A stretch of 64,000 nt of DNA from positions 5,580,001-5,644,000 of the forward strand of contig NC_014666.1 of assembly GCF_000166135.1 (NCBI RefSeq). The letters are read 5' to 3'. Below the pieces are notes generated by a model, which saw only the letters and a list, made by a program, of their open reading frames with translations, was not told where the DNA came from and did no database searches. Origin of the DNA: Pseudofrankia inefficax. Lineage in GTDB: Bacteria > Actinomycetota > Actinomycetes > Frankiales > Frankiaceae. The position numbers and the translations under genes are program-made. Positions 36,248 through 45,483 of the stretch are shown one piece after another (the stretch's first letter is position 1; each line of letters begins with the position of its first letter).

Positions 36248-37768
36248 CTACCGGACGGCCTCGCCGGAGCCGGCCGCCAGCTCGTCGCCCACCCGCGGTG
36301 CCGGTGTGGCGGGGGTCGCGGGTGGCTCCGGCACCGCGGCCACGGCGTGGCGCGGCCGCAACAGGACCGTGGCCAGGACGATGCCGGCCGCGACACAGCA
36401 GGCGGCGACCAGCAGGCCGAGCCGGTCGCCGCCGACGAGCGCCGACACCGGGTCGTGACCCGCCCTGGTCAGGGTCGCGGTGCGGCCCGCCGCGACCGTG
36501 CCGAACACCGCGAGGCCGATCGCCGCCGAGACCTGCATGGAGACGTTGACGATGCCCGACGCCAGGCCGGCGTCCGCCGGGGGGACGTCGGCCAGCGCCA
36601 GCGTCGTCAGCGGGACGAACGCGCCGCCGCCGCCGAGGCCGAGCATCACGGTGACGATCAGCAGGCGCGGGAAGTACGGCGTCCCCACCCCGCCGGTCGC
36701 GAACAGGACCAGGCCCGCCAGCATGATCGTCATACCGGCGACCAGGACCCGGTACGGCCCCAGGCGGGCCGTCAGCCACCGGGCGAGCCCGAGGGACATG
36801 ACGGCGACGACCCCCGTCTGGGGCAGGAACGCGGCACCGGTCGCGACCGCGCCGTAGCCGAGCACCCGCTGCAGGTAGAGCGCCCCGAAGAAGAAGTAGC
36901 CGTACATGCCCGCGGCCATCACCGCGCGCACGGCGCTGCCGGCGATCAGGCTGCGCTGGCGCAGCACCCGTGGCGGCAGCATCGGGTCGGCGACGCGCGC
37001 CTCCCAGCCGGCGAAGGCGGCGAGCAGCACGACGGCGACCGCGCCGGTTGCGAGGGTGCGCGCCGAGCCCCAGCCGACGTCCGACGCCCGCACGATCGCG
37101 TAGATGCCGATGATCAGGGCCGCCGTGACGAGGACGGCGCCCAGCACGTCGATCCGAGGCCGGGTCGCGCTGCCGTCGCCGCGGCGCCGGTCGAGCAGCA
37201 GCACCCCGCCGGCGAGCGCGACGATCCCGATCGGCACGTTGATCGCGAAGATCCAGTGCCAGTTGAGGGCCTGGGTCAGCAGGCCGCCGACGATCAGGCC
37301 GAGCGAGCCGCCGCCGATCGACACGAGCATGTAGCGGCCGATGGCGCGGGCGCGCTCGGCCGGGTCGGTGAACTCGGCGACGACGATCGCGAGCACCGAG
37401 GACGACGCGAACGCGCCGCCCGCCCCCTGCACGAACCGGGCCGCGACGAGCGTCGCCACCGAGTCGGCGAGGGCGCAGCCGATCGAGGCAACGGTGAAGA
37501 CGGCGATGCCGCCGAGGAACAGCTGGCGACGCCCGATCAGGTCACCGAGCCGCCCGGCGACGAGCAGCAGGCTGCCGTAGGTGATCAGGTAGCCGTTCAG
37601 GGTCCAGGTGAGGTCGGCCTGGGTCACGTGCAGGTCGGTCTGGATCGCGGGCAGCGCGACGTTCACGACCGTGGTGTCGAGCATGACCATCAGCTGGGCC
37701 AGCAGGACGACGATCAGCGCCAGCCATCGGCGTGGGTCCGGGCCCGCCGTCGGATTAATGTCGCTCAT
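36248..37768 (-). CDS. MFS drug exporter, DHA2 (EmrB/QacA) family
   Basis: A 506-residue transporter with 14 predicted membrane helices. Motif LMVMLDTTVVNVALPAIQTDL in helix 1, TWTLNGYLITYGSLLLVAGRLGDLIGRRQLFL (motif A) and the GGALGxxxGG-like segment are typical of proton-driven multidrug efflux. ATG 37768 lies directly after a perfect palindrome with an embedded TATAGT, so the mRNA may have almost no leader. It is divergent from a MarR-type gene, the usual layout for a repressor/exporter pair. Confidence 0.93.
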   Translation of the reverse strand: MSDINPTAGPDPRRWLALIVVLLAQLMVMLDTTVVNVALPAIQTDLHVTQADLTWTLNGYLITYGSLLLVAGRLGDLIGRRQLFLGGIAVFTVASIGCALADSVATLVAARFVQGAGGAFASSSVLAIVVAEFTDPAERARAIGRYMLVSIGGGSLGLIVGGLLTQALNWHWIFAINVPIGIVALAGGVLLLDRRRGDGSATRPRIDVLGAVLVTAALIIGIYAIVRASDVGWGSARTLATGAVAVVLLAAFAGWEARVADPMLPPRVLRQRSLIAGSAVRAVMAAGMYGYFFFGALYLQRVLGYGAVATGAAFLPQTGVVAVMSLGLARWLTARLGPYRVLVAGMTIMLAGLVLFATGGVGTPYFPRLLIVTVMLGLGGGGAFVPLTTLALADVPPADAGLASGIVNVSMQVSAAIGLAVFGTVAAGRTATLTRAGHDPVSALVGGDRLGLLVAACCVAAGIVLATVLLRPRHAVAAVPEPPATPATPAPRVGDELAAGSGEAVR

Positions 37769-37796
37769 GAGATAGTCACTATAGCGTGACTATCTC
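37769..37796 (-). promoter_or_regulatory. Palindromic operator overlapping the MFS promoter
   Basis: Perfect 11-bp arms GAGATAGTCAC and GTGACTATCTC around TATAGC. On the minus strand it includes TATAGT at 37783-37778 as a good -10 box, with TGTCGG 17 bp upstream as a weak -35. The palindrome ends at the base before the ATG. A bound MarR would cover the promoter. Confidence 0.75.
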
Positions 37797-37805
37797 GAGG
37801 CCGAC

Positions 37806-37849
37806 ACCACCCCGGCTCTATAACCACCCCGGCTCCACGACCACCCCGG
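37806..37849. repeat. Three ACCACCCCGG direct repeats, 17-bp period
   Basis: ACCACCCCGG at 37806, 37823 and 37840, in the divergent promoter region. The first two copies share CTC after the core. The 17-bp period is near 1.6 turns, so these may be activator or sigma-factor sites rather than a phased array. Confidence 0.65.
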
Positions 37850-37857
37850 GCACATAA

Positions 37858-37877
37858 CCATCAACAGATCTTGATGG
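37858..37877. promoter_or_regulatory. Inverted repeat before the MarR gene
   Basis: CCATCAA-CAGATC-TTGATGG with perfect 7-bp arms, 27 bp before the MarR ATG. The sequence is unrelated to the palindrome at 37769, so two different regulators may act here. Confidence 0.6.
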
Positions 37878-37904
37878 GCATGGTCATGTTACGCTCGGAC
37901 AGCC

Positions 37905-38423
37905 ATGGCACTCTCGATGAGTCCTGTCGGCCCGAGCCCGGTCGACACGGACACCCCGGTCAGCGCGGCCACCCTGAGCGCCCTGGTTACTCAAAGTGAC
38001 GACACTGCTTCGGTGGACGCCCAGAGCCCGGGTGCGCTCGTCCTGATGACGCGGCTGAGCCGGCAGGTCTACCAGGCCGCCACCGAGGACATCCTCGGCA
38101 TGAGCCTCAAGCAGTTCGTGCTGCTCAACCAGCTCCACGAGGACACCGGCGTGCCCCAGCAGCAGCTGGCCGAGTACCTCTGCCTGGGCGCGAACATCCT
38201 GGTGCTGCTGCTCAACACCACCGAGTCGGCGGGCTGGGCCGAGCGCCGCCGCGACCCGGCCGACCGGCGCCGCCACCTCGTCCACCGCACCCCGGCGGGC
38301 ACGGCCGCGGTCGCCCGCGCCGAGGAGGCGATGGACAGCGTCGAGCACAGCGTCCTCGGCAACCTCTCCCCCGCCGAGCGCACCGTCCTGCGCGGCCTGC
38401 TCGCCCGCGCCCTCGGCGACTGA
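37905..38423 (+). CDS. MarR-family transcriptional regulator
   Basis: A 172-residue MarR-type winged helix. An N-terminal extension of 40 residues precedes the dimer helix (VLMTRLSRQVYQAATEDILGMSLKQFVLLNQLHEDTGVPQQQLAEYLCLGANILVLLLNTTESAGWAERRRDPADRRRHLVHRT), with the usual DPxDRRRHLVxxT wing. It probably represses the divergent MFS exporter and is released by a drug-like ligand. ATG 37905 is used; ATG 37917 is possible. Confidence 0.92.
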   Translation: MALSMSPVGPSPVDTDTPVSAATLSALVTQSDDTASVDAQSPGALVLMTRLSRQVYQAATEDILGMSLKQFVLLNQLHEDTGVPQQQLAEYLCLGANILVLLLNTTESAGWAERRRDPADRRRHLVHRTPAGTAAVARAEEAMDSVEHSVLGNLSPAERTVLRGLLARALGD

Positions 38424-38457
38424 GCCCGCCTCGGCGATCTGGTCGCCTGGCGGGGCG

Positions 38458-39531
38458 ATGGCGCGCTACAACTTCGACATGACGACCGCGACACCGCGCA
38501 CGCCCACGCCAGGAGCCGAGCCGGCCTCGGGACTCGGGCCCCTCGGCGCGCCGCCGCCGTTCGACCTGGAGATGGCCGCGGCGCTGGAGGCGCTGGCCGG
38601 TGTGCTGCCGACGGCGATCACGCCGGAGATGATCCCGCTGATGCGCGGCCGCCCCCAGCTCGGGCCGACGAACGAGGAGCTGGCCCGCGGCGGGGCCTTC
38701 ACGATCAGCGAGGTCGCCGTGCCCGGCCCGGCGGGCGCGCCGGAGGTGGGGCTGCTCGTCTGCCGGCCGACGGCCGCGACGATCGAGGCGGCCGGGGCCG
38801 ACCCGGCCGCGGCCCAGCCGGTGATCTACCACGCGCACGGCGGCGGCATGATCATCGGGGATGCCCGCTCCGGGCTGCCGGACATCCTCGACTGGGCCGA
38901 GGACCTCGGCCTCGTCGTCGTGTCCGTCGACTACCGGCTCGCGCCCGAGAACCCACACCCGGCCCCGGTGGAGGACTGCTACGCCGGCCTGCTCTGGACC
39001 GCGGCGCACGCCGCCGAGCTCGGCGGCGACCCCGAGCGGCTGCTCGTCGCCGGCCTGTCCGCCGGTGGCGGCCTCTCCGCGGCGCTGGCCCTGCTCGCCC
39101 GCGACCGCGGCGGGCCGGCGCTGATCGGCCAGGTCCTGATGTCCCCGATGCTGGACGACCGCAACGACACCCCGTCGGCGGTCCAGCTGGCCGGCCTGGG
39201 CGTCTGGGACCAGTCGTCGAACGCGACGGGGTGGGGCGCCCTGCTCGGCGACGCGGCCGGCGGCGCCGACGTCTCGCCGTACGCCGCGCCCGCCCGGGCC
39301 ACCGACCTGTCCGGCCTGCCCCCGGCCTACATCGACGTGGGCTCCGCCGAGACCTTCCGCGACGAGGACGTCGCCTACGCGTCCCGGCTCTGGCGGGCCG
39401 GCGGCCAGGCCGAGCTGCATGTCTGGCCCGGCGCCTTCCACGGCTTCGACCTGCTCGCCCCGCAGGCCGCCCTGACCCGCCAGGCCAAGGCCGTCCGCCT
39501 GCAGTGGCTCACCCGGCTGCTGGCCCGGTAG
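38458..39531 (+). CDS. Alpha/beta hydrolase, hormone-sensitive lipase (HSL/GDXG) family esterase
   Basis: A 357-residue esterase. The oxyanion motif HAHGGGMIIGD, VVSVDYRLAPENPHPAPVEDCY, the nucleophile GLSAGGG (Ser in GxSxG), Asp in DVGSAETFRDEDV and His in FHGFD make a complete triad. It acts on acyl esters in the cytoplasm. ATG 38458 follows GGCGGGG; ATG 38479 is an alternative. It lies 34 bp after the MarR gene and may be part of the same detoxification unit. Its end overlaps the convergent HPr-kinase-like gene by 23 bp. Confidence 0.9.
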   Translation: MARYNFDMTTATPRTPTPGAEPASGLGPLGAPPPFDLEMAAALEALAGVLPTAITPEMIPLMRGRPQLGPTNEELARGGAFTISEVAVPGPAGAPEVGLLVCRPTAATIEAAGADPAAAQPVIYHAHGGGMIIGDARSGLPDILDWAEDLGLVVVSVDYRLAPENPHPAPVEDCYAGLLWTAAHAAELGGDPERLLVAGLSAGGGLSAALALLARDRGGPALIGQVLMSPMLDDRNDTPSAVQLAGLGVWDQSSNATGWGALLGDAAGGADVSPYAAPARATDLSGLPPAYIDVGSAETFRDEDVAYASRLWRAGGQAELHVWPGAFHGFDLLAPQAALTRQAKAVRLQWLTRLLAR

Positions 39532-40447
39532 CCGGGCCCGGCCCCGCGGTCCCGGGAGCCGCGCCCACGGCGAAGTCTGCGATCAGCCGGCTGGCCTCGT
39601 CCAGCGCGGTGGGCCGGTGCGGGTAGTCCAGGGTGGCGAAGGTCACGCCCCGCATCCAGCGAGTGAGGAAGTCGAACTCCCGAGCCGCGTCTCCGACCGG
39701 TATCAGGGCGGTCCGCATCAGGCCCGCGCGCAGCAGGAGCAGGCCGTCGACCGGCCGCATCACCGCCAGCGCGGCGGGCGCGGGGCCTCCCGTCGCCCGA
39801 TCGGGTTCAGGCCGGCTGTTCACCAGGATCACCGCCGCCACCGGCACCGGGCGGTCGGCCGGCCCGGCGAGCGGATGGCGGCTCTTCGTGCCGTAGCGCG
39901 GCAGTGGGATGCCGCCGTCGAGACCGAGCAGCTTCCCGGCATCGTCCCAGAGCCGGACCTCGCGGCTGCACGACAGCACCTGGGCCTCGCCGCCGGCCAG
40001 TCGCAGCACCGCCGCGTCGTCCCCGAGCAGCGGCCAGCCCAGCCGGCGGTGCAGTGCCGTGCTCAGCGTGGACTTCCCGGCCCCGGACCGGCCGACCAGG
40101 AGCACGGAGCCGGTCGGGCCGACCAGCGTGGCCGCGTGCAGCACCGGTGTGCCCGAGCCGGAGGCCAGCGCCCACGGAATGACGGCCGCGACGAAGTGGT
40201 CCGCCTCGGCTTCGCTCGGCGCCCGGGCCGGCAGATGCCAGCTGACCCGCCGGCCAGCGTGCAGGGTGTACGCGGCGAGGCCCTCCGGCACGACGACCCG
40301 GTCGTTGCCGCCCGCCGCGTGGACCTCCAGCGGCCCGCGCCGGGTGCTCAGCCGGGTCAGCAGCGCCCCACGCGGCGCCGGCACCGGGGTACCGCGCACG
40401 ACGACCGTCGGCAGGTCCCCCCCGCCGCCCCGGCCGCCGCCACCCAT
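39509..40447 (-). CDS. HPr kinase-like protein of the lasso-peptide locus
   Basis: 312 residues from the only ATG. Walker A is GRSGAGKS (119-126), with LLGDDAAVL as the expected catalytic Asp region and RHPLAGPADRPVPVAAVILV later. Such kinases in paeninodin-type lasso clusters phosphorylate the C-terminal Ser of the precursor. Family N-termini seem to be encoded upstream of this ATG (codons at about 40510-40448 read YRFGAVEVRSDVALPG), but no ATG/GTG/TTG is in frame there. A rare start such as CTG 40516 is possible. The precursor gene is 161 bp upstream. Confidence 0.8.
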   Translation of the reverse strand: MGGGGRGGGGDLPTVVVRGTPVPAPRGALLTRLSTRRGPLEVHAAGGNDRVVVPEGLAAYTLHAGRRVSWHLPARAPSEAEADHFVAAVIPWALASGSGTPVLHAATLVGPTGSVLLVGRSGAGKSTLSTALHRRLGWPLLGDDAAVLRLAGGEAQVLSCSREVRLWDDAGKLLGLDGGIPLPRYGTKSRHPLAGPADRPVPVAAVILVNSRPEPDRATGGPAPAALAVMRPVDGLLLLRAGLMRTALIPVGDAAREFDFLTRWMRGVTFATLDYPHRPTALDEASRLIADFAVGAAPGTAGPGPATGPAAG

Positions 40448-40538
40448 CAGGTACTCGTCGTAGCCAGGCAGGGCGACGTCGGACCGGACCTCGACCGCGC
40501 CGAAGCGGTAGCACAGCGGTGCCCGGCCGGCGGCGGCG

Positions 40539-40572
40539 ACAGACCCCCGGGGCGCTGGCCCCGGGGGTCTGT
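40539..40572 (-). terminator. Strong hairpin between lasso precursor and kinase genes
   Basis: A 15-bp perfect stem (ACAGACCCCCGGGGC and its complement) with a 4-base loop, 36 bp after the precursor stop. It would end or attenuate most transcripts so that the precursor is made in excess over the kinase, a common arrangement in RiPP clusters. Confidence 0.7.
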
Positions 40573-40608: not shown

Positions 40609-40767
40609 TCAGCTCGGCTGCGCGATCTGGATGATGGCGTCCAGCAGCAGGCCGGGCTGGCCGGCCGTCCGCACCGCGAGGCTGCCATGCTCGGTCAGGC
40701 TGGGCTTCTGGTAGGCACGCCGCGCGGCGATATGGCCCTCGGCGGTGCCGGTCTTCTCGGCGATCAT
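40609..40767 (-). CDS. Lasso-peptide precursor (52 residues)
   Basis: ATG 40767 follows GGAGA at a 5-base spacing. The leader (1-35) carries YQKPSL at 19-24, the YxxPxL motif read by the leader-binding protein, and ends in T34-A35 with Thr at the penultimate place as in other lasso precursors. The core (36-52) is GQPGLLLDAIIQIAQPS. Gly1 and Asp8 fit an eight-residue macrolactam ring; the last residue is Ser. The cyclase gene ends 85 bp upstream, and the HPr-kinase-like gene is downstream. The ring size, cleavage point and phospho-Ser are predictions. Confidence 0.88.
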   Translation of the reverse strand: MIAEKTGTAEGHIAARRAYQKPSLTEHGSLAVRTAGQPGLLLDAIIQIAQPS

Positions 40768-40852
40768 CACACTCTCCAGGATCGACTACGGATACTGCAG
40801 ACAGTAATGCTTAGTGACCTGTCGGTTGCAGAGAGTAGCAGCGCGGGTCGCC

Positions 40853-42676
40853 TCAGAAGCGCACCCCGCTCCGCGCGAGCCACATGTCCAGGCCGACCAG
40901 CTGCCACAGAGCCACCAGCCCGTGCTGCGGGTCGGGAGGCTGCCGGCCGTCGCGGGCCGCCGCCACCGCTGTCGTCCACGCGGCCTTGGCGATCCCGAGG
41001 TCCACCCACCCGTCCGCGACCAGCGGTCCGCCAGCCAGCAGGCCCATCCCGCCGGCCTCCTCGACGGCGTCGACCAGCTCCAGGTCGAAGTGGGCCTTGC
41101 CCCGCCGGGTCCGCACCGACTCGGGCAGCACGTCGGCGGCCGCCGCCCGCAGCACCGGCTTGGTCTCCCCCGGCCGGTACATCGTCAGGCCCGGGGTCGA
41201 CAGGGCGACCTCGATCACCCGGCGGTCGTGGAACGGGTGGCGCCAGTCAACGCCCGCGCCCGTGTAGATCGTCCGCGCCGTGTCGAGCAGCGGCAACGAC
41301 GCGCGCACCACCGCGAGCCGCCACCGCTCCCGCTGGTCGTAGGACCGAAACAGGGCGGCGTCGGCGGCGTCCGCGGCGGCGAACCGGCCGTCGAGGTCCA
41401 GCCCGCGCAGGCGTGCCGGCCGGATCCACGGCAGGGTCAGGCGTTCACCCGCGATGCCGCGGGGAAACGGAGCGAGCGCGTGGCGGCGCGCGACGGCAAG
41501 CCTGGTCCGTACCGACCTGGGGCTGATCCCGGCGCCCGTCTGCCGCCAGAGCGGGCCGAGCCGGCCGGCCCGCCACAGGTCGGGCCAGTGGCTGCGCCAC
41601 CCGGTGAGCCAGTCGTCGCCGCCCTCCCCCGACACCAGCACGTCGAGGCCCTCCTGGCGAGCGGCGGTGCCGACCGCCTCGGTGAGGGCGAGGTTGGGCC
41701 GGGGCGGCATGTCGAGGGTGTCGGCTGTCCACTGCCGCCAGCGGTCCCAGTTGTACGGCTCCGGCTTGACCCGCAGCACGGCCGTGCCGGTGTGCTCCTC
41801 GACCGCGTCGACCCACCGGGACTCGTCGTGTGACCGGCCCGGGAACACCATGCTGATCGGCACGACCCGGGCCGGGCCCCCGTCCCGGGCCGCCAGCCGG
41901 CTCGCGATCCCGGTGATCGTGCTGGAGTCGAGGCCGCCGGACAGCCCGATGGCGACCGGTGCCCGCGCCGTCGCGTCGTGGACCGCGGCCTCCAGCGCCG
42001 TGCGCAGTTCCCGGGCGGCGACGGGCAACGGGGCGGCGCGCAGCGGCGGGACCACCGACAGCAGCGAGGTGAAGGGCCGGCGCGACGGGGCTCGGCCCGG
42101 GGCCACCTCGAGCACGTGGCCGGCGGGCACCCGCTCGACCCCGAGCAGCAGCGTCTCGTGCAGGGAGGTCAGGTCGCGGGTCAGCGTCTCGGCCAGCACT
42201 GCCTCGTCGACCCGCAGCGGGATCCCGGCGGCCCGCAGCTGGGCCGGCTCGGTGCCGAACAGCAGCCGCTCGCCGGTGTGGTGCACCACCAGCCGGCGCA
42301 TCGAGTGCGGGGAGCGGGCCAGCACCAGCCGGCTGGTGGCCGGGTCGAACACGGCCAGCGCCCAGTCGCCGAGCAGGTGGTCGAGGCAGGTCAGGCCGTA
42401 TCGCCCCCAGGACTCGACGACCCGGCCGGACACCCCGCCGCTGCCAGGTCCGCCCGTGGACCAGCCGTCGACGACGGCGAGCAGCCCGTTCGGCGGGTGC
42501 GCGAGGTCGGCGGCGGCGCCGAGGCCCGGCCCGGGCGCCGCGGCGACGGCCAGCACTCCCGCGGCCTGCAGGTGGACCGGGCCGCCGGCCGGGGTAGCCG
42601 ACGCGGCGAGCATGGTCGCGGCCAGCTCGGTCGAGCCCGGCTTGCCGTCCAGGCGGAGCTCTCCGCAGAAGCTCAT
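40853..42676 (-). CDS. Lasso-peptide cyclase (asparagine synthetase-like, LasC/McjC)
   Basis: A 607-residue protein of the asparagine synthetase B family. The glutaminase half lacks an N-terminal Cys (it starts MSFCG, so Cys is at position 4), hence no glutamine use. The synthetase half has the PP-loop GLSGGLDSS (about 241-249), VSGEGGDDWLTGW, HPFHDRRVIEVALSTPG and RRGKAHF, all as in lasso cyclases, which adenylate the ring Asp/Glu and join it to Gly1. ATG 42676 follows GGAGG, better than the start at 42733. The exporter gene lies 82 bp upstream, and the precursor 85 bp downstream. Confidence 0.9.
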   Translation of the reverse strand: MSFCGELRLDGKPGSTELAATMLAASATPAGGPVHLQAAGVLAVAAAPGPGLGAAADLAHPPNGLLAVVDGWSTGGPGSGGVSGRVVESWGRYGLTCLDHLLGDWALAVFDPATSRLVLARSPHSMRRLVVHHTGERLLFGTEPAQLRAAGIPLRVDEAVLAETLTRDLTSLHETLLLGVERVPAGHVLEVAPGRAPSRRPFTSLLSVVPPLRAAPLPVAARELRTALEAAVHDATARAPVAIGLSGGLDSSTITGIASRLAARDGGPARVVPISMVFPGRSHDESRWVDAVEEHTGTAVLRVKPEPYNWDRWRQWTADTLDMPPRPNLALTEAVGTAARQEGLDVLVSGEGGDDWLTGWRSHWPDLWRAGRLGPLWRQTGAGISPRSVRTRLAVARRHALAPFPRGIAGERLTLPWIRPARLRGLDLDGRFAAADAADAALFRSYDQRERWRLAVVRASLPLLDTARTIYTGAGVDWRHPFHDRRVIEVALSTPGLTMYRPGETKPVLRAAAADVLPESVRTRRGKAHFDLELVDAVEEAGGMGLLAGGPLVADGWVDLGIAKAAWTTAVAAARDGRQPPDPQHGLVALWQLVGLDMWLARSGVRF

Positions 42677-42748
42677 GACATCGGCCTCCGGTGCGTGGCG
42701 CCACATCGGCCGGGACCACGCCGAGACGGACACCGAGTATGGATACTA

Positions 42749-42770
42749 AGAGTGTTAATCAAAGCACTCT
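42749..42770 (-). promoter_or_regulatory. Inverted repeat at the exporter/cyclase junction
   Basis: AGAGTG-N10-CACTCT across the exporter stop, followed by GTATGGATAC. On the minus strand TTGATT lies 17 bp before TACTCG, a possible promoter for the cyclase. It may also slow transcription from the exporter gene. Confidence 0.4.
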
Positions 42771-44576
42771 GTGTTCGGATCGCGAGGTGCTGGCGTCCGC
42801 GAGTCGCAGCGCGTCGCGGAAGTAGCCCTCGGTCTCGGCGAGCTCGCCTGGGCTGGCCAGCGCCGTCAGCCGACCGTCCTCAAGCACCGCGACCCGGTCG
42901 CAGCCGAGCACCGTGGACATCCGGTGGGCGATGACGATGACGGTGGTCGCCGGCCCGATCGTCGCCACCGCGGCGCGCAGCGCCTCCTCGGCGCGGGCGT
43001 CGAGCGCGCTGCTCGGCTCGTCCAGCACCAGGAGATCGGGCAGCCGGACCAGCGCCCTGGCCAGCGCCACGCGCTGGCGCTGGCCACCCGACAGCGCGGT
43101 GCCGTGCAGGCCGGCCGGATGGTCGAGACCGTCCGGCCAGGACGCCAGCTCCGGTCCGAGCCCGGCCCGGACCGCCGCCGCGCGGACCTGGGCGTCGCCG
43201 AGCCCGGAACGCAGGAACCGGATGTTCGCCGCGACCGTGCCCGTGATCAGCGTCGGCTGCTGCGGCACCACCCCCACCCGGCCAAACCACTCCCGCGGGT
43301 CGACGTCGGCCCGGTCGACCGGCCGGTCACCGGGGCCGACGAGCACCTGGCCCCTGCTCGGTTCGAGCAGGCCGAGCAGCACGCCGGCGAGGGTGGTCTT
43401 GCCGGCACCGCTGCGCCCGACCACGCCAAGCCGCTCGCCCGGCCGCAGCGTCAGCTCGATGCCGGTCAGCGCGGGCCGGGCCGTGCCCGGGTAGGTCACC
43501 TCGACGCCGGCGAGCCGGATCGCGCCGGCGTTGGGGCAGGACCGCCCCCCTGGGGCTCGGCCGGTCGCCCAGCGGTCCAGGTGCTCCTCGACGCGGTCCA
43601 GGTGGGTCAGCCGTTCCCGCAACTGGTGCGCGGTGGCGCCGAGAGCGGAGGCCTGGCCGAGCGCGCGCATCACGAGCAGCGTGACGAGCCCGACGGTGCC
43701 CAGCGGCAGCTCGTCGAGCCAGAGCACCAGCAGCAGGACGGCGATGAGCGCGAGCACCGCGAGGTCGCGGGCCAGCCGCGGGGTGACGGTGGCCCGGAAC
43801 ATCGTCTCGCCGTGCAGGCGGCCGGCCCGCCCGGACGCCTGGGACAGCGCCTCGGCCGCCTCGTCGACGACACCGAACACCCGCAGCTCGGCGGCGACGG
43901 TCGTCGTCTCGGTCAGCGCCGTGCCCAGCGCGCTCGCCGCCTCGACCGCGCGCCGGTTCACCGCCTGGGTGTGCCGGCCGGCCAGGCGGACCGATCCGAG
44001 AACGGCGGCGACCACGACGGCCAGCGCGCTGGTGGCCAGCGGGCTCACGGCGAAGGCCGCAACGGCGAACGCGCCGAGGCGCAGGGCGGCGGCCACCGCG
44101 TCGCCGCAGCGCTCGGCGCCGAGGGAGATCTGCGCGGCGTCGCCGAGCGCGAGCTCCTGCAGTCGGCCGGTCGGCTCGGCCCGCTGCGCCGACCAGTCCG
44201 CGGCCAGGTAGTGGCGGGCCAGCCGGTCCCGGACCGACGTCAGGGCGGACGCGCCGATCCGACTGGTGACACGCGCGCACACGACGGTCGTCGCCGCCGC
44301 ACCAGCCGCGGCCAGCAGCGCCGCGCCAGCGAGCGTGCCTCGCGAGGATCCGAGCCAGGGGACCACCCGCGAGCCGCCCCGAGCCGACCCGGTCGCGAGC
44401 GTGATCATGAGGACCATCGTGAGCAGCTCCAGCAGGCCGGAGACCAGGCCGAGCACCGCCATGGTGGCCACCTGGCGAGCCGGGTGACGCACCCCGTCGG
44501 TGCTGCGCGACCACCAGTGACGGGCGCTGGCCAGCGCGCGCCGGAAGGTGGCCGCGCGGCGAGTGGGAGTGGCCAT
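42759..44576 (-). CDS. ABC transporter (exporter) of the lasso-peptide locus
   Basis: A 605-residue fused permease/ATPase (LasD/McjD type). The N-half has six membrane segments (about 40-315), and the ATPase domain (360-590) has Walker A GRSGAGKTT, signature LSGGQRQRVALARAL, Walker B LLVLDEPSSALD and HRMSTV. Length and arrangement fit a homodimeric exporter giving both export and immunity. It is the first gene of the lasso run on the minus strand. No separate peptidase C39 domain is present. Confidence 0.92.
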   Translation of the reverse strand: MATPTRRAATFRRALASARHWWSRSTDGVRHPARQVATMAVLGLVSGLLELLTMVLMITLATGSARGGSRVVPWLGSSRGTLAGAALLAAAGAAATTVVCARVTSRIGASALTSVRDRLARHYLAADWSAQRAEPTGRLQELALGDAAQISLGAERCGDAVAAALRLGAFAVAAFAVSPLATSALAVVVAAVLGSVRLAGRHTQAVNRRAVEAASALGTALTETTTVAAELRVFGVVDEAAEALSQASGRAGRLHGETMFRATVTPRLARDLAVLALIAVLLLVLWLDELPLGTVGLVTLLVMRALGQASALGATAHQLRERLTHLDRVEEHLDRWATGRAPGGRSCPNAGAIRLAGVEVTYPGTARPALTGIELTLRPGERLGVVGRSGAGKTTLAGVLLGLLEPSRGQVLVGPGDRPVDRADVDPREWFGRVGVVPQQPTLITGTVAANIRFLRSGLGDAQVRAAAVRAGLGPELASWPDGLDHPAGLHGTALSGGQRQRVALARALVRLPDLLVLDEPSSALDARAEEALRAAVATIGPATTVIVIAHRMSTVLGCDRVAVLEDGRLTALASPGELAETEGYFRDALRLADASTSRSEHRVL

Positions 44577-44874
44577 GGCGCCGAAGATAGTCAGTGGTGG
44601 TCACATAGTTACTCCACGTAGCGACCGTGTTGGCTTCCGAAGGACGTCGCAGCCTATGTCCCAGCCGGCCGACATAGGCCGACAAAAATCGGACCATGCC
44701 ATTCGGTGAGGAAACTCCATTACCTCGCCGAGACCCCTGTTCGGCCGGGAAGAGCGTTACCTTCGGCCCGGGAACAAAGTCCCGACAGCGCCGTGCGGGG
44801 GTTCCAGGTTTTCAGGCCCGCTGGCGCCCAGGTGCCGTTCTCATCAGTCCTGAACCGTGCAGAAGGGAACTGTC
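44577..44874. other. Divergent intergenic region, lasso exporter / secreted protein
   Basis: No gene. It holds two inverted repeats: CCTATGTC-N10-GACATAGG (44653-44678), with perfect 8-bp arms, and CGGTGAGG/CCTCGCCG (44704-44730, one mismatch). These are the best candidate control sites for the lasso transcript and the secreted-protein gene. Confidence 0.55.
44653..44678. promoter_or_regulatory. Inverted repeat, candidate operator for lasso exporter
   Basis: CCTATGTC, 10-base spacer, GACATAGG; perfect 8-bp arms. It lies 77 bp before the exporter start on one side and about 197 bp before the secreted-protein gene on the other. A second GGCCGACA copy overlaps the right arm. Confidence 0.5.
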
Positions 44875-45483
44875 ATGAAACTGTGGGCGAAACGCGCGAC
44901 TCACACTGCCGGGGTGCTCGTCGCCGCCGCCGGCCTGGCACTGGCCGCCTCGGCCCCCGCCTCGGCGGCGCCGCCGAACACCGCGACCGGCCTCAAGGCG
45001 ACCGGCCTCATCCCGGCGAACCCGCTGGTGGCCAGCGCCTTCCCGGGCACCTCGCCGAACCACGCCGCGAGCCTCAACCTGCCGCCGCTGCTCACCACCG
45101 GCGCCGTTGACACCGCGGCAGGACCGACCACCGCGAGCGCGACGGTCAGCGGACTGAACATCTCGCTTTCACCGCTCGCGAGCCTGACCGCCGGAACGCT
45201 TACGTCGAACTGCTCGTACAACTCCGTCACCGGTGTCGTCAGCGCCGACTCCAATATCGAGAACGGAAAGGTCGTGCTGCTCGGAACACCCATCTTCCTC
45301 ACGCCGCACCCGACCCCGAACACCACGCTCACCCTGCCCGGCCTGGCCACGCTCATCCTCAACCGGCAGACCACCGGGCCGGACGGCACGGTGACGGTCG
45401 ACGCATTGTCGGTCAGCCTCGTCAGTGGCCTGGAGAACGTCGTCCTCGCGACGTCCACCTGCAACGCGGCAACCCTTTCCTGA
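44875..45483 (+). CDS. Secreted protein, choice-of-anchor P-like
   Basis: 202 residues with a signal peptide (VLVAAAGLALAASAPASAA, cleavage about residue 32), then an all-beta Thr/Ser/Leu-rich body with GLKATGLIPANPL near the start and GLATLILNRQTTGPDGTVTVDALSVSL near the end. The latter is typical of the choice-of-anchor P group of actinobacterial exported proteins, whose role is unknown. Two Cys (about 108 and 198) may form a disulfide. ATG 44875 follows AGAAGGGA. It is divergent from the lasso exporter. Confidence 0.75.
   Translation: MKLWAKRATHTAGVLVAAAGLALAASAPASAAPPNTATGLKATGLIPANPLVASAFPGTSPNHAASLNLPPLLTTGAVDTAAGPTTASATVSGLNISLSPLASLTAGTLTSNCSYNSVTGVVSADSNIENGKVVLLGTPIFLTPHPTPNTTLTLPGLATLILNRQTTGPDGTVTVDALSVSLVSGLENVVLATSTCNAATLS

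Follow-up and report, generated by a model that had tools for sequence, protein, structure and literature searches.

A probable kinase-tailored lasso peptide precursor in Pseudofrankia inefficax, with a pathway apparently divided between two chromosomal loci

The precursor gene and its surroundings

The window analysed here, a stretch of 64 kb, comprises positions 5,580,001-5,644,000 of the single 8,815,781-base contig of Pseudofrankia inefficax (G000). On the minus strand it carries, in this order, an exporter gene (D), a cyclase gene (C1), the precursor gene (A), a hairpin and a kinase gene (K). The features, in window coordinates, are as follows.

44857..45483, plus strand: gene for a choice-of-anchor-P secreted protein
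42759..44576, minus strand: ABC exporter D
40853..42733, minus strand: asparagine-synthetase-like cyclase C1; the start used in relatives is the ATG at 42676
40831..40841, minus strand: CTGCTACTCTC, a possible promoter element upstream of A
40772-40777, minus strand: GGAGAG, resembling a ribosome-binding site (read by eye)
40609..40767, minus strand: lasso precursor A, 52 codons, identified by leader model, alignment and family profiles
40767, minus strand: ATG start of A; alternatively, translation might begin at the in-frame GTG one codon before it
40663-40767, minus strand: leader of A, MIAEKTGTAEGHIAARRAYQKPSLTEHGSLAVRTA, 35 amino acids
40612-40662, minus strand: core of A, GQPGLLLDAIIQIAQPS, 17 amino acids
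40609-40611, minus strand: stop codon of A, TGA
40539..40572, minus strand: perfect 15-bp hairpin with a 4-base loop, between A and K
39509..40510, minus strand: HprK-like kinase K; homology extends from at least 40510, upstream of the listed ATG at 40447

The original prediction described a 52-codon minus-strand reading frame, with GGAGA before its ATG, just after a lasso-type cyclase gene. The reading frame and its signals are as described, and it starts 85 bases past the stop codon of C1. The leader scores 21.0 bits with the NCBIfam model lasso_leader_L3, for which the cut-off is 19. When the window was cut into its 912 stop-to-stop pieces of at least 25 amino acids and these were searched with a profile from five other precursors (A and its 83%-identical relative having been left out), A ranked first of the 912 with E=2.7e-14, the next piece reaching E=0.043. 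Precursor reading frames beside related cyclase genes, proposed at the outset as a test, were found in six other genomes, namely Frankia sp. AgB1.9 (G002), Pseudofrankia asymbiotica (G004), G006, G008, Frankia sp. QA3 (G029) and Virgisporangium aliadipatigenens.

The seven aligned precursors have Y, P, G, Thr at -2 and Asp in common. The YxxPxL leader motif, which is YQKPSL in A, keeps its Y and P in all seven, as does Thr at leader position -2, so that the leader features first noted in A are upheld by conservation as well as by the model score. By the Thr(-2) rule, Asp stands at core position 8 in A and at position 8 or 9 in every member of the set, which supports the earlier assignment of Gly1 and Asp8 as the ring-forming residues. 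The core ends in Ser in five of the seven, A included (that of G006 ends in SG and that of Virgisporangium in AP), and Ser17 is the sole hydroxyl residue in the core of A. Taken together, A very probably encodes a new lasso peptide. The predicted product is a member of the kinase-tailored lasso peptides, with phosphorylation expected from the neighbouring genes. Upstream, CTGCTACTCTC occurs in exactly one copy, solely upstream of A, at five of the seven precursor loci (G000, G002, G004, G006 and G008); a variant lies upstream of A in G029, and the Virgisporangium precursor locus has none. A sigma-70 scan found nothing.

C1 is related to the cyclases beside the other six precursors. Whether it would group with true AsnB had been set as a further test; in the cyclase tree, a branch with support of 99.6/100 holds C1 and these six precursor-linked cyclases apart from the rest of the tree and separates C1 from the AsnB-like protein of the same genome (L001). 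C1 has Cys at position 4 and none at position 2, the place of the catalytic Cys2 of AsnB. In the same tree two further lasso cyclases were placed, on long branches, together with AsnB-like proteins, and C1 itself lies below every NCBIfam cyclase cut-off (132 of 525 bits for lasso, 126 of 267 for AsnB). For K, the residues H136, G151, G154, G156, K157, S158, D175 and D176 are invariant in six of six kinases, D175 not being among the invariant residues listed for a wider set of eight. A conserved His/P-loop/Asp-Asp motif is described for HprK-like kinases in excerpts of PMC10368454. Although K stays below its family cut-offs (HprK_rel_A 35 of 200 bits, Hpr_kinase_C 14.6 of 33.3), we predict from sequence that it is HprK-like and belongs with the kinases known to phosphorylate lasso precursors.

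The hairpin between A and K is more stable than expected (z -4.6; 0 of 200 shuffles) and has no T run. As a terminator it found no consensus match in a terminator scan; a role as attenuator or mRNA stabiliser is possible. Further along, at 36248-39531, an MFS efflux pump, a MarR-like regulator and an esterase/lipase-like gene adjoin the lasso genes; these neighbours are retained in G002 and partly missing in G001.

Leader-processing genes at the his locus

Profiles for B1 (RRE), B2 (leader protease), NT, C, A and K were run on the 64 kb, and K, A and C alone reach E 1e-3 or better; no B1, B2 or NT was thus found anywhere in the window, and B1 and B2 do not share a cluster with A. In the whole genome, Transglut_core3 (B2) occurs at two places and PqqD (B1) at three. 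The two places with both are lasso loci, L011 at 0.32 Mb and L012 at 6.14 Mb. L012 contains NT (PF14907), B1 (PF05402), B2 (PF13471) and a second cyclase, C2, with B1 overlapping B2 and B2 overlapping C2; its B1 lies about 0.52 Mb from A. Among lasso RREs of solved structure, TbiB1 (E 2.5e-15) and TfuB1 (7e-8) are matched by the B1 profile. These lasso genes (L012:3881-11027) are located between hisA and hisH and interrupt the his genes.

A motif scan found no precursor at L012. The curated leader model gives the precursors of G004, G006, G008 and G029 only 13.1-15.3 bits, below its cut-off of 19, and therefore misses most of the family, so the search for a second precursor was made with a family profile. 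In this genome the profile recovers the window copy alone, the next match being at E 0.15, and across genomes it finds one precursor each in 7 of 11. As it was built from the same seven precursors, those seven matches arise by construction, and it is the lack of others that is informative.

One-piece clusters and the split layout in related genomes

Matches to C1 at E 1e-40 or better occur in 7 of 146 related genomes. A single cluster holds NT, D, B1, B2, C, A and K in each of G004, G006 and G008, while G029 has six of the seven genes together and no close D. The complete cluster of G006 sits between hisA and hisH; that of G004 is beside hisA, hisH not being seen in the stretch examined. The two-locus split is common to G000, G001 and G002, in which C1 and the his-locus genes are at two places each and the window neighbourhood is syntenic. 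In G002, D, C1 and A run to a contig end and K is at the start of another contig. G001 keeps C1, B1, B2 and C2; A and K are absent, D is broken and NT is reduced to a 26-residue match. The C2 gene of G002 (L060:8494-10558) appears frame-shifted near its start in what is a draft assembly.

Selection on the genes of both loci

Between G000 and G002, dN/dS is 0.23 for C1, 0.19 for D, 0.29 for B1, 0.33 for B2, 0.29 for C2 and 0.43 for NT; the his genes give 0.13 (hisA), 0.25 (hisH) and 0.12 (hisD). C1, D, B1, B2, C2 and NT are thus under purifying selection between these genomes. For A the ratio is 0.87 (leader 0.54, core 1.55) over few sites, at which purifying selection is not clear. The two cores share the ring GQPGLLLD and Ser17 and differ at four tail residues, and the leader motif is the same in both.

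G001 still has an intact, conserved C1 (dN/dS 0.17 against G000) despite the loss of A and K, and gene retention therefore need not mean a working pathway. B2 of G001 has changed faster, with 13 versus 3 and 14 versus 3 unique changes (p 0.02 and 0.01, uncorrected for 13 tests), as has its hisD (8 versus 1 unique changes, p 0.04); the same test finds no faster change in its B1, C1 or C2.

Proposed pathway and alternatives

We consider it probable that 40609-40767 encodes a kinase-tailored lasso precursor, similar to those of paeninodin and pseudomycoidin, whose pathway is split over two chromosomal loci. In the excerpted literature, the leader is bound by B1, which passes it on to B2; the precursor is the substrate of HprK-like kinases, the C-terminal Ser being the site in paeninodin; the kinase can be accelerated by B1; and PsmN adds a hexose to the pseudomycoidin phosphate (PMC9266682, PMC8498205, PMC10368454, PMC5067487). 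From this published enzymology, the sole hydroxyl at Ser17 and the kept motif of K, we infer the following course. Precursor A would be made at the window locus, and its YxxPxL leader would be bound in trans by the his-locus B1 and B2, with B2 cutting after Ala35. C1, possibly together with C2, would then join Gly1 to Asp8. K would phosphorylate Ser17, probably on the precursor, the his-locus NT may add to the phosphate on Ser17, and D would export the product. A stronger form of this proposal is possible, though we hold it doubtful: an obligate two-locus pathway, left after two neighbouring his-operon clusters lost different genes, in which one precursor is served by both C1 and C2. If so, two diverged cyclases acting with a single precursor gene could give two products or form a mixed C1/C2 complex.

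It could be argued that A is a real precursor whose leader is removed by the B1/B2 pair of L011, at 0.32 Mb, and not by that of the his locus, since B1, B2 and C are present at L011 along with a precursor whose YxxPxL leader has the same Y-to-Thr spacing as A. We think this unlikely given how the two types of B2 are distributed among ten Frankiaceae genomes (G000-G008 and G029, which is not a random set, G008 and G029 having been added for their matching C1). The L011 type is present in all ten regardless of a window-type precursor, whereas the his type is present in seven, namely in all six with such a precursor and, as the exception, in G001, and is absent from all three that have neither the precursor nor a C1-type cyclase (G003, G005 and G007). 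Furthermore, in the three one-piece clusters it is the his-type B1/B2 that adjoins an A-type precursor, even though those genomes carry the L011 type as well. That the his-type B2 tracks the precursor is the main reason why the his-locus pair is assigned to A.

Both loci could also be the decaying remnants of a former cluster from which no peptide is made, as the state of G001 (no A or K, a broken D, a stub of NT), the frame shift apparent in C2 of G002 and the freely changing core of A would allow. Yet the reading frames of all eight genes at both loci are open in G000, six of them have dN/dS of 0.19-0.43 against G002, and these two genomes have the ring, leader motif and Ser17 in common; in G001, which has lost A, B2 was the only tested lasso gene to have changed faster (p uncorrected). 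We therefore regard general decay as quite improbable. Least likely of all, and in our view very improbable, is that no leader protease is needed, general proteases releasing the core on which C1 then acts alone. According to its title, one paper reports formation of pseudomycoidin in vivo without leader and leader peptidase, and the C-A-K trio of Virgisporangium also stands without nearby B1/B2; but excerpts of PMC5067487 state that the paeninodin B2 fails to cut without B1 and call B1 essential, and a dedicated B1/B2 pair is conserved elsewhere in this genome.

Origin of the two loci

The split probably arose when two cluster copies in the ancestor of the genus lost different genes, a history reconstructed from comparison of present-day sequences. 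In the gene tree C2 groups with the G004 cyclase with support of 100/100. The nearest cyclase to C1 by identity is that of G006 (66%), its tree placement being weak (71.8/64; 42.8/53). A relict cyclase start lies between NT and D of G004 (L061:9122-9777, minus strand). It fits C1 best, with a score of 83 against 50 for C2, 61 for the G004 cyclase itself and 62 for that of G006, where the maximum among shuffles is 46 and 0 of 200 shuffles do as well for any of the four cyclases. The intact cyclase of G004 is C2-like, and the presence of a C1-like relict in the same cluster suggests that two clusters were once side by side at the his site. A homologue of the choice-of-anchor-P gene of the window stands beside NT and hisA in G004 and G006, which fits a his-site origin of the window piece; no such homologue was found at the corresponding place in G001 and G002.

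The complementary gene content of the two loci would arise by chance with a probability of about 0.15 under a simple model of random loss of 6 of 14 copies, and complementarity alone thus proves little. One or both copies may never have been complete, which counts against the two-copy history. As for an empty site for the window piece, its neighbours are not together in the stretches of G004, G005 and G006. When upstream regions were compared, the his B1 region matched the NT-D regions of G004 and G006 with 1 of 300 shuffles as good in each case, and the D region of the G002 window locus matched both with 0 of 300. The D region of the G000 window compared with G004 gave 97 of 300 shuffles as good, and the region upstream of his B1 compared with those upstream of window D in G000 and G002 gave 195 and 117 of 300, neither being significant. 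A candidate relict B2 end in G004 is doubtful, as 15, 29 and 3 of 200 shuffles did as well for three B2 ends. Low-complexity stretches can also give tblastn E-values near 1e-7, and such values were therefore given no weight.

Relation to known systems

The closest comparison is with pseudomycoidin of Bacillus pseudomycoides (psmA, K, N, B1/B2, C, D), for which excerpts describe the same set of precursor, cyclase, kinase, nucleotidyltransferase and exporter and a core with a C-terminal Ser, the phosphate acceptor there and the one proposed here (PMC9266682, PMC8498205). Unlike that system, described in these excerpts as a single cluster, the genes here are actinobacterial, are divided between loci 0.52 Mb apart and include a second cyclase, and the precursor has a YxxP leader and a different core. 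Paeninodin (PadeK) and the precursors linked to ThcoK and SyanK likewise combine an HprK-like kinase, a C-terminal Ser and separate B1 and B2, as excerpted (PMC9266682, PMC5067487). The paeninodin-like precursors of Bacillota have a WxxP leader in place of YxxP, the core of A appears unrelated by eye, and the excerpts mention no two-locus arrangement for these systems. The one-piece clusters of G004, G006 and G008 hold orthologous NT, D, B1, B2, C, A and K, but with the seven genes together, one intact cyclase and other cores.

A lasso pathway needing an enzyme encoded outside its cluster is also known from the citrulassins, where excerpts of PMC12971885 identify that enzyme as a tailoring deiminase, whereas here it would be the leader-processing pair B1/B2. 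Unclustered lanthipeptide proteases are already in print (PMC8960859, as excerpted). Within the open-licence literature searched, we found no lasso pathway whose B1/B2 pair is encoded at a different locus, and to judge from these papers a layout that separates B1/B2 from A, C and D is not described. Genome mining by cluster looks for B1, B2 and C next to the precursor; a precursor with its processing pair half a megabase off would be taken for incomplete, or would be expressed in the absence of enzymes it needs. If the trans pairing holds, the system would let RRE-leader specificity between loci be tested in a natural setting, and would be a case of a doubled RiPP cluster made into one pathway by differential loss.

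Other lasso-like loci

L011 is a further lasso cluster (L011:7659-10982, genome 320.7-324.0 kb) with D, B2, B1, C and A, whose precursor has a YxxP leader, a Gly-rich tail and a likely core start of GRWGWGRD. In Virgisporangium aliadipatigenens, the C-A-K trio (L075:9998-12905) has no B1, B2 or NT within 10 kb on each side and is perhaps an independent second set lacking B genes; the sole Transglut_core3 gene of that genome belongs to a different lasso-like cluster, whose leader is of the WxxP type. Finally, a reading frame at 388.7 kb of the P. inefficax genome (L065:1489-1674) has a strong lasso leader, at 29 bits, followed by a Gly/Trp-rich tail without Asp or Glu. No B1, B2 or cyclase gene was found near it, and similar leaders occur in relatives.
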